Assembly: GCA_945897885.1 (NCBI GenBank)
Contig: CAMDGU010000032.1
Coordinates: forward strand, 1 to 32,448
Length of the DNA: 32,448 bases
Origin: Chitinophaga pinensis
GTDB lineage: Bacteria; Bacteroidota; Bacteroidia; NS11-12g; UBA9320
Direction: 5' to 3'
Part shown: piece after piece, positions 12,725-14,549 of the stretch
Layout of the letters: the number at the start of each line of letters is the position of its first letter
Numbering within the stretch: the first letter of the stretch is position 1
Position numbers and translations under genes: made by a program
Notes under the pieces: model-generated
Told to the model about the DNA's origin: nothing
What the model saw: only the letters and a program-made list of their open reading frames with translations
Database searches by the model: none

Positions 12725-12745
12725 CATCAAATGTAATAAAAAAAA

Positions 12746-12763
12746 CCTCACAATTATGTGAGG
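12746..12763 (-). terminator. Intrinsic terminator hairpin, left copy
   Basis: A perfect 7-bp stem (CCTCACA/TGTGAGG) with a 4-nt loop is followed on the minus strand by a run of eight T. It lies directly behind a degraded tRNA 3' end on that strand. The same 18 bp recur at 14484-14501. Confidence 0.75.
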
Positions 12764-12770
12764 AGGCTTT

Positions 12771-12800
12771 GGCTCCCCAAGCTGGTCTATTCTCGAACCA
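12771..12800 (-). other. Degraded tRNA 3'-end remnant, left copy
   Basis: Read on the minus strand this has GGTTCGAGA, a T-loop-like string, then ACCAGC and an acceptor-like GGGGAGCC, directly followed by a terminator. The T-arm is interrupted by about four extra bases, so no functional tRNA can fold. No 5' half is present upstream. Likely a leftover of a tRNA gene or of an att site. Confidence 0.45.
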
Positions 12801-12927
12801 ATTCTGGAATGAATTGAGGGTTTATGCGACCTTGGTATAAATGCAGCTTAATTAATATTGGTAAAATTTCGTTTTGGTTTAATAACAAAATTGTTTTGTT
12901 TTGGTTAAAGAATGTAGTGGAATATTT

Positions 12928-12976
12928 TTATAATTCGCCAAAACTGATTTTATTTCGTAATTTTGGCGGATTATAA
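12928..12976. repeat. Palindrome upstream of the ATPase gene
   Basis: Arms TTATAATTCGCCAAAA (12928-12943) and TTTTGGCGGATTATAA (12961-12976) pair at 15 of 16 positions around a 17-nt spacer. The right arm ends 9 nt before the ATG at 12986. A closely related palindrome with the same left arm and the same spacer length follows the gene at 14404-14452. It may be an operator, or the end of a mobile unit. Confidence 0.75.
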
Positions 12977-12985
12977 GTTGTTTTA

Positions 12986-14401
12986 ATGAGTGAAATTATT
13001 GGAAGAAAGTTGGAGCAGGCTCTGCTGAAAGAATCCATTGATAATAACAAGTCTGAATTAATTGCCCTATACGGTCGAAGAAGAATTGGCAAAACATATC
13101 TGATACGTGAATACTTTAAGACTAACCTTGTTTTTGAAATGTCAGGATTATGTGGAGGCTCACTAAAAGATCAACTCGAAACTTTCAGTAAGGAGCTCAC
13201 CAAAAGAACAAAGAAAATGGAATTGGAGACTGCAAAATCATGGTTTCAAGCATTCACGATGCTTGAATCGTATTTGGAGACATTTAAATCAAGGAGTAAA
13301 AAAGTAATATTTATAGATGAATTTCCTTGGATTGCTACGCCCAAATCGAAGTTTTTAATAGCCTTTGAAAACTTTTGGAATACCTATTGCACCAAAAGGA
13401 ATGATTTGATTGTGGTTATTTGTGGCTCTGCTGCGTCCTATATGGTTCAGAAAATAATAAAAAATAAAGGTGGACTGCATAATAGAATCTCGAGGAAAAT
13501 TCGGTTGCTTCCGTTTAATTTATTTGAAACAGAACAGTTTTTGATAAAGAATGGTATAAAATATACGCGTTATGACGTGATACAGATTTACATGGCTTTG
13601 GGCGGGGTGCCACACTATTTAGAAAAACTGAAAAAAGGGTTGAGTGCATCTCAAAATATTGATAAATTATATTTTAGTAAAGATGGTATATTAAACGATG
13701 AGTTTAATCAGTTGTTTGCTTCGCTATTTGATGACTCTGAGCGGCACATGAAACTTATAAAAACGTTGGCAAAATCAAATAAAGGGTTGACGAGAAATGA
13801 ATTAATAAATCAAAGTAAAATATCGTCTAGTGGTGATTTTTCATCAAAACTTGAAGAGTTAATTGAATCTGGCTTTGTGACAGATTATCCATACTATCAG
13901 AATAAGAAACAGCTCACCCTTTATCGCTTATCCGATGAATATTCTAGATTTTACTTAAAGTTTATTGACAATAATAAGAGTGGTGGAGATGGAACTTGGC
14001 AAAAACTATATACTACACAATCCTACGTCTCATGGTCTGGATTTGCTTTTGAAACGCTTTGCCTTAAACATATTCAACAAATCAAGAAGGCGTTGAGAAT
14101 AGATGCTATTTATACAACGAGCAGCAGTTGGTTTAATGAAAATGCCCAAGTTGATATGTTAATTGACCGTAGCGATAATGTTTTGCAATTGTGTGAAATG
14201 AAGTTTTATAATGCTGTTTTTACAATTGATAAATCATATTATCTGAATCTGAAAAATAAAATTGTACAGCTACAACGGGATACTAAAACTAGGAAGAATA
14301 TTTTTGTTACGCTAATTACTTCTTATGGAATCCAGGAAAACGAATACAGCAAAGAATTAGTAAATAGTCACTTGGAAACGGATGTTTTGTTTAGTGATTA
14401 G
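12986..14401 (+). CDS. AAA ATPase with DUF234/PD-(D/E)XK-like C-terminal domain
   Basis: This 471-residue protein belongs to the 'archaeal ATPase' family (ATPase_2 plus DUF234). Walker A is GRRRIGKT (30-37) and Walker B is VIFIDEF (107-113). CGSAAS (146-151) is the likely sensor, and GGVPHYL (206-212) is a family signature. A winged-helix-like region (about 255-320) leads into a C-terminal domain with Glu356, Asp390 and E404-M-K406, which fits a PD-(D/E)XK nuclease active site. The biological role of this family is not settled; defence and mobility have both been proposed. The gene is alone, flanked by matching palindromes and outside these by tRNA-end/terminator repeats. All catalytic motifs look intact. 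The ATG at 12986 follows the palindrome closely. Confidence 0.9.
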   Translation: MSEIIGRKLEQALLKESIDNNKSELIALYGRRRIGKTYLIREYFKTNLVFEMSGLCGGSLKDQLETFSKELTKRTKKMELETAKSWFQAFTMLESYLETFKSRSKKVIFIDEFPWIATPKSKFLIAFENFWNTYCTKRNDLIVVICGSAASYMVQKIIKNKGGLHNRISRKIRLLPFNLFETEQFLIKNGIKYTRYDVIQIYMALGGVPHYLEKLKKGLSASQNIDKLYFSKDGILNDEFNQLFASLFDDSERHMKLIKTLAKSNKGLTRNELINQSKISSSGDFSSKLEELIESGFVTDYPYYQNKKQLTLYRLSDEYSRFYLKFIDNNKSGGDGTWQKLYTTQSYVSWSGFAFETLCLKHIQQIKKALRIDAIYTTSSSWFNENAQVDMLIDRSDNVLQLCEMKFYNAVFTIDKSYYLNLKNKIVQLQRDTKTRKNIFVTLITSYGIQENEYSKELVNSHLETDVLFSD

Positions 14402-14403
14402 TA

Positions 14404-14452
14404 TATATAATTCGCCAAAATCCATCAATTTGGATTGTTTTAGCGGAATATA
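14404..14452. repeat. Palindrome downstream of the ATPase gene
   Basis: TATAATTCGCCAAAA (14406-14420) faces TTTTAGCGGAATATA (14438-14452), pairing at 12 of 15 positions around a 17-nt spacer. It begins 2 nt after the stop codon. The left arm shares ATAATTCGCCAAAA exactly with the upstream palindrome. Confidence 0.7.
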
Positions 14453-14483
14453 AAATTACCAAAAGAATGTAAACACAAAAAAA

Positions 14484-14501
14484 CCTCACAATTATGTGAG
14501 G
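14484..14501 (-). terminator. Intrinsic terminator hairpin, right copy
   Basis: Identical 18 bp to the hairpin at 12746-12763, again followed on the minus strand by seven T. It stands between the ATPase gene and a tRNA-like remnant and could also act on plus-strand transcripts leaving the ATPase gene. Confidence 0.75.
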
Positions 14502-14506
14502 CTTTT

Positions 14507-14549
14507 GCTCCCCCTTCTGGACTTGACCCGGCGACCCTCTGATTAAGAG
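14507..14549 (-). other. tRNA 3'-half remnant (Asn/Lys-like), right copy
   Basis: On the minus strand the order is CTCTTAATCAGAGGGTCG, a T-arm-like GGGTCAAGTCC, and acceptor-like AGGGGGAGC, then the terminator. This is the 3' half of a tRNA from the anticodon loop onward, closest by eye to tRNA-Asn or tRNA-Lys. The bases 5' of the anticodon loop do not pair with the 3' anticodon stem, and the T-stem has mismatches, so it is not a working tRNA. The breakpoint in the anticodon loop is where tyrosine integrases often recombine. Confidence 0.55.

Follow-up and report, generated by a model that had tools for sequence, protein, structure and literature searches.

Co-varying palindromes frame a PDC-S27 ATPase–nuclease gene that appears to move as a single-gene unit

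Described systems and the window locus

PDC-S27 is a candidate single-gene defence family of PADLOC, for which 'guilt-by-embedding' is cited; most PDC families are unvalidated (PMC12988326). The protein encoded at the locus described here, like all its tested relatives, matches the family profile over its full length. It has the AAA+ and winged-helix fold of Orc1/Cdc6 and the PF01637 archaeal ATPases (PDB 2qen, 1w5t and 2qby) but differs from them by a fused PD-(D/E)XK nuclease and by sites that frame its gene. Orc1/Cdc6 proteins bind inverted-repeat DNA boxes. The same two enzyme activities occur in the Tn7 family, as TnsA (PD-(D/E)XK) and TnsC (AAA+); the unit at our locus, however, encodes a single chain and has neither the DDE transposase TnsB nor terminal repeat arrays. 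Its surroundings resemble the WHO homing elements of yeast, in that outer cassettes carry the 3′ end of the target gene, orphan the old 3′ end and form arrays (PMC7282813), but the host is bacterial, the targets are tRNA-Asn or frnE and the nuclease is different; any homing here is putative. Arrays of single small genes with a common boundary behind tRNA-Asn (loci L067, L007 and L010; L numbers denote relative loci, G numbers genomes, G000 being the window's own, and W the window locus) also recall integron gene cassettes, except that their boundaries are tRNA-3′-end-like with terminators and no integrase was seen. The gene family is known as a candidate defence gene, whereas the paired co-varying palindromes, the promoter overlap and the solo palindromes are apparently new; in the open-access journal papers searched, we found no description of them for PDC-S27.

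The gene of W (positions 12986–14401, plus strand, of the window, which is the whole 32,448-nt stretch that was analysed) encodes a 471-aa protein in which Pfam recognises ATPase_2, AAA_14 and DUF234 and no known transposase or recombinase domain. The PADLOC profile PDC-S27 matches residues 1–469 of 471 (E=5e-189) and was also assigned to 8 tested relatives, plasmid and phage copies among them. The protein is thus the product of a listed candidate anti-virus defence gene, and may act in defence. An AlphaFold2 model built with 31 relatives (pLDDT 91.7) is closest, among solved folds, to the PF01637 ATPase 2qen and then to Orc1/Cdc6 and ORC subunits; the top sequence match among solved structures was TnsC (E=0.006). 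The model delimits a winged helix at about residues 251–315 (13736–13930, plus strand), which by its similarity to Orc1/Cdc6 is the likely reader of the palindromes, and a PD-(D/E)XK nuclease core at residues 345–445 (14018–14320, plus strand). GRRRxGKT and FxDExPW (Walker A and B), E356, D390 and E404-x-K406 are invariant in 31 of 31 relatives; thus, the ATPase and nuclease activities both look intact, as an earlier note on this DNA had read from the motifs.

The gene has no close relative among 37 other genomes of the family, and six other Bacteroidota MAGs carry copies of 88–92% identity; together, these findings argue for recent horizontal transfer. Another DUF234 gene, shorter than that of W, is present in the window's genome (G000:C15:44746-44880), and its counterpart in G006 (L119) carries a strong, different upstream palindrome. 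In Wolbachia phage WO, a PDC-S27 gene lies among head genes (L207:3001-4464), with short CCGCGG inverted repeats upstream.

Two matching palindromes frame the gene, at coordinates that we could confirm from the earlier description. The upstream palindrome, a probable operator (12929–12975, unstranded), reads TATAATTCGCCAAAA-17 nt-TTTTGGCGGATTATA, with 14 of 15 arm positions paired and one further pair that extends it to 12928–12976; it ends 9–10 nt before the ATG at 12986. The downstream palindrome (14406–14452, also unstranded) reads TATAATTCGCCAAAA-17 nt-TTTTAGCGGAATATA, with 12 of 15 positions paired, and begins 2–4 nt past the stop codon at 14401. When the flanks were shuffled 300 times, 14/15 pairing was never reached and 12/15 pairing was reached in 14 trials. 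Taken alone, the downstream palindrome is therefore marginal; it is made secure by a left 15-nt arm identical to that of the upstream palindrome, by the equal spacer and by conservation in relatives.

Across the 3.03-Mb genome, the pattern was matched at two places and no others, namely on the two sides of the ATPase gene. A search of 395 genomes of the class, of the kind that had been proposed, recovered the strict pattern in 7, almost always as pairs 1471–1477 bp (about 1475 bp) apart that flank ATPase genes; the reversed control pattern gave 3 matches. The spacer of exactly 17 nt held at both window palindromes and in every strict match, although 13–23 nt were permitted. The shuffles, the uniqueness in the genome and the paired 17-nt-spacer matches across the 395 genomes rule out chance palindromes. 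An Rfam RNA family was also rejected (single sub-threshold match, E=0.53).

Palindromes and promoter across the family

The framing seen at W recurs in relatives across Bacteroidota, with a spacer that is nearly always 17 nt. Among 50 loci, an anchored GCCA..TGGC palindrome lies upstream in 39 and downstream in 23, and 54 of the 62 palindromes have the same span. Arm sequences vary by branch (TATAATTCGCC, TATAAGTAGCC, GAGTTGCAGCC and TTTGTTTCGCC, with unrelated arms in L038 and L039). Left and right palindromes are more similar within a locus (0.84) than between loci (0.71), and for representatives below 70% protein identity the left-right arm similarity was 0.85 within and 0.58 between loci (permutation p=5e-5). 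A single protein reading both palindromes would be expected to produce such paired co-variation, which suggests that each protein reads the palindromes framing its own gene.

Framing follows the subfamily and is not uniform. When DUF234 genes were sampled without bias from the 395 genomes, nearly all members of about 470 aa had an upstream palindrome and most had a downstream one; members of 436–461 aa mostly lacked both. Related ATPase genes without palindromes, which the earlier note had counted as evidence against its proposal, thus exist in the shorter subfamily and are the exception among the longer proteins. About 40% of class-wide relatives lack the downstream palindrome. On plasmids of Emticicia, Segatella and Butyrivibrio, relatives of 38–42% identity likewise have upstream palindromes, and L104, L109, L112, L114 and L115 have an upstream palindrome only. 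Two tandem palindromes, both upstream, are found in one clade (L029, L030 and L032–L036) and in L139, and the unit of L133 has three in total; these unusual numbers or placements (three, or two tandem upstream) can be seen at L133:5664-7252, L139:7407-7517 and L135:7348-7394.

Palindromes were also observed in other settings. A Planctomycete relative (L037:2629-4717) lies between copies of a 306-nt direct repeat, and this repeat contains CGCCAAA palindromes of its own. L015 has a second palindrome-rich direct repeat, TTTGTCTTATCAACAAGATAAAAA, at gene-relative positions -691..-576 on the left and +275..+390 on the right, possibly from another palindrome-framed gene. Fifteen viral contigs (L212–L226, 8 distinct sequences) carry a single TTCGCCAAAA-17-TTTTGGCG palindrome and no ATPase gene. 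Spacers of 15, 16, 18 and 19 nt gave no such palindrome; other spacers also yielded matches, and 4 of the 8 distinct sequences have the solo palindrome inside coding sequence.

What does the upstream palindrome contain? TAnnTTTG is the consensus of the Bacteroidota -7 box. At W, a promoter box of this type, TAATTTTG (12958–12965, plus strand), is formed by the spacer and right arm of the upstream palindrome. The motif TAnnTTTG (TAnnTTTGGC) lies within the palindrome at 35 of 39 upstream sites versus 5 of 23 downstream sites. The upstream palindrome is thus symmetric and overlaps the promoter of the gene that it precedes, as in an autoregulated gene with a palindromic operator. Together with the upstream palindromes of the plasmid relatives, this overlap makes an autoregulatory operator the best-supported core function predicted for it, and strongly suggests the self-regulating system that had been one of the two options in the earlier note. 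No promoter lies in the downstream palindrome, which may be a second site for the protein.

Edges, solo palindromes and the outer cassette

Pairs of loci at 70–85% protein identity in differing surroundings share the gene and the palindromes and nothing beyond: identity is at background within about 5 nt outside the outer edges of the palindromes, the exception being L013/L017, whose left flanks are similar over about 20 nt. Identity at fourfold sites was 65% for W/L010, whose flanks are strongly similar, and 57% for W/L021 and 61% for L014/L020, whose flanks are dissimilar. Since W and L010, a pair of similar age, retain homologous flanks, decay alone is an unlikely cause of the sharp edges. 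The edges could instead reflect selection on operators with loss of the unselected flank.

In one genus, an orthologous intergenic gap, with a glycosyltransferase gene on one side and a 172-aa gene on the other, contains a full unit in G273, a single palindrome with neither gene nor gene remnant in G429, and neither palindrome nor gene in G426, where about 40 bp of flank are also absent; the check for empty sites that had been proposed thus returned all three states. The sequences on either side of the G429 solo palindrome match those outside the two ends of the G273 unit, the solo palindrome itself has an 18-nt spacer and mismatches, and across ten genomes of the genus the palindrome is confined to this gap. 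The tRNA-Asn array of G327 contains another solo palindrome; G065, a sister of G327, has the unit at tRNA-Asn. The solo state is thus clear in one case, G429, and less clean in G327. Taken together, the sharp edges and the series of unit, solo and empty sites indicate that palindrome, gene and palindrome form a unit that is gained and lost and that, as read from these comparisons, moves horizontally between bacteria.

Several searches set bounds on how it moves. The window's own genus offered no empty site, the flanking gene itself being absent there, and near the units of L132 and L133 the orthologues were too diverged and had no palindromes. Outer arms were not more alike than inner arms (0.80 vs 0.85), which rules out typical transposon ends. 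The genomes scanned had one unit each, with no multi-copy spread and no short, internally deleted copies. No target duplication was seen at the sole empty site compared (G426, which lacks flank sequence as well), and none of the compared loci had an empty site precise to the base. As no terminal-repeat asymmetry, multi-copy spread, recombinase or target duplication was found, self-catalysed transposition is no more than a possibility.

In the window, the unit sits inside a larger cassette (12739–14549) with tRNA-Asn 3′-end remnants on both flanks, all on the minus strand. Its outer boundary is marked by the left copy (12739–12763) of an identical 25-nt direct repeat, a terminator hairpin, followed by a tRNA-Asn 3′-end-like remnant (12770–12824), a 'type A' boundary (...GGTTCGAGAATAGACCAGCTTGGGGAGC). 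The right copy (14477–14501), again a terminator hairpin, is followed by what is left of a tRNA-Asn gene, its 3′ half, which breaks off at the anticodon loop (14507–14549), as alignment to loci with intact tRNA-Asn showed. This repeat pair, which the earlier note had missed, is unique in the genome and represents duplicated tRNA-Asn terminators. Outside the palindromes, the sequence shared by W and L006–L011 continues as far as GCTCCCC on each side, a boundary that is the tRNA-Asn 3′ end, followed by the terminator. L007 and L009 have an intact tRNA-Asn immediately to the right (W has only the 3′ half), and the tRNA 3′-end direct repeat is present on both sides of the outer cassette in W, L007, L008, L010 and L011. 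Thus, the W unit rides in a larger tRNA-Asn cassette. No integrase gene is present in the unit, which holds a single gene. The self-contained mobile cassette of the earlier note therefore needs qualifying: the palindromes track the gene family, co-vary and frame a horizontally moving unit, but at W a larger cassette lies outside it.

Behind the tRNA-Asn of L067 stand small genes in a row, the ATPase unit among them; a common 77-nt boundary and a terminator close each one. Such arrays lie at L067:9719-11819, L007:652-2840 and L010:1232-4574 and in L008, L011 and L043; their genes are PfpI-like, glycine zipper, TfoX-C-like, DinB, hydrolase, SOUL, YefM-YoeB and SDR, and their tRNA-3′-end-like boundary of 53 or 77 nt ends in GGGGAGC and a terminator, integron-like with no integrase seen. 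At L068:825-1850 and L070:3240-3898, the tRNA-Asn has several degenerate copies of itself, with terminators, behind it, and L068 has a solo palindrome at 1804–1850 without an ATPase gene. Immediately behind tRNA-Asn at L006:6007-6429 is a gene resembling GIY-YIG nucleases, which makes this a position used by two different kinds of nuclease gene. At L062:6570-10221, tRNA-Leu precedes three near-identical genes for four-helix-bundle proteins around the ATPase unit. No carrier region without the ATPase was found in 16 genomes of one order.

Duplicated 3′ ends around the unit also involve a DsbA/FrnE gene (L032, L034 and L035), a cupin gene (L022) and tRNA-Met (L014). At L032:2735-4484, as in L034 and L035, the 3′ end of the DsbA/FrnE-like gene, KSFVGAQEDELFEEMLKEELEK, is duplicated on the far side of the unit; three independent duplications were rejected in favour of one old event at one syntenic locus. 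L022:1997-4757 and L023 have repeated cupin-gene 3′ ends separated by a YefM-RelE-type toxin-antitoxin pair and the ATPase unit, and form another 3′-end-anchored array.

Roles proposed for the palindromes

We consider it moderately probable that the locus is a horizontally moving PDC-S27 single-gene unit whose protein reads both palindromes and represses its own gene, and which is lost by recombination between the palindromes. This explanation builds on the architecture, the co-variation, the promoter overlap, the sharp module edges and the unit, solo and empty states. The Orc1/Cdc6-like AAA+/winged-helix/PD-(D/E)XK protein would most likely recognise both palindromes and, bound at the upstream one, would cover the -7 box and limit its own synthesis. 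The downstream palindrome would be a second site, perhaps bridged to the upstream one by an ATP-dependent oligomer. Gene and palindromes would be gained as one unit, presumably with a role in defence, and recombination between the two palindromes would remove the unit and leave one palindrome behind.

Alternatively, the palindromes may be the ends of a mobile element, which the protein would bind, join and cut so as to move the gene, either as a TnsA-TnsC-like single chain or by homing to palindromes. The coincidence of module edges with the palindromes, the solo palindrome left in G429, the intact nuclease residues, TnsC as the best sequence match among solved structures (E=0.006) and near-identical units in differing surroundings all agree with such ends; yet the similarity of outer and inner arms, the single, undeleted copy per genome, the failure to see a target duplication, the clade with both palindromes upstream and the missing flank of G426 argue against them, and we regard this possibility as rather unlikely. 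The idea that the product recognises its own ends is thus suggested by the co-varying arms as far as recognition goes, and weakened as to ends by the same both-upstream clade, arm comparison and copy number and by the roughly 40% of relatives without a downstream palindrome. It is likewise doubtful that we are dealing with a minimal mobile element, in which a single-chain AAA+/PD-(D/E)XK protein would recognise, pair and cut its own 47-bp palindromes while palindrome and reading head co-evolve.

Operators alone would suffice if tRNA-anchored cassettes, plasmids and phages carried an autoregulated gene along as a passenger and the solo palindrome arose by direct-repeat deletion. The -7 box overlap, the wider distribution of the upstream palindrome and the apparent decay of the G429 palindrome (18-nt spacer, mismatches) would fit, but a matched copy right after the stop codon in most Bacteroidota loci and the coincidence of edges with both palindromes across numerous independent pairs would go unexplained, making this improbable. 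That the outer tRNA-Asn cassette, as an integron-like array member, is the real mobile object and the palindromes are incidental seems very improbable: W and L006–L011 do share sequence out to the tRNA-Asn 3′-end repeats on both sides, and L067 has several cassettes behind tRNA-Asn, but loci beyond this subfamily keep the palindromes without the carrier, so this account describes the carrier of W and not the palindromes. We give equally little credence to RNA hairpins, acting as terminators or mRNA stabilisers, in place of DNA sites. Both palindromes fold as RNA (z -5.8 and -2.9) and G-U departures from symmetry slightly exceed A-C departures (37 vs 22); however, most departures are other than G-U, the spacer is fixed at 17 nt and unconserved in sequence, the upstream palindrome has a promoter inside, and a T run is absent.

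Few candidate defence genes are as abundant in archaea as PDC-S27, which is common in bacteria as well. The matched, co-varying palindromes give this family a candidate DNA site for binding, repression and cleavage, and may serve as a specificity code, readable across hundreds of natural variants. The series of unit, solo and empty sites illustrates how genomes gain and lose a gene of this kind.
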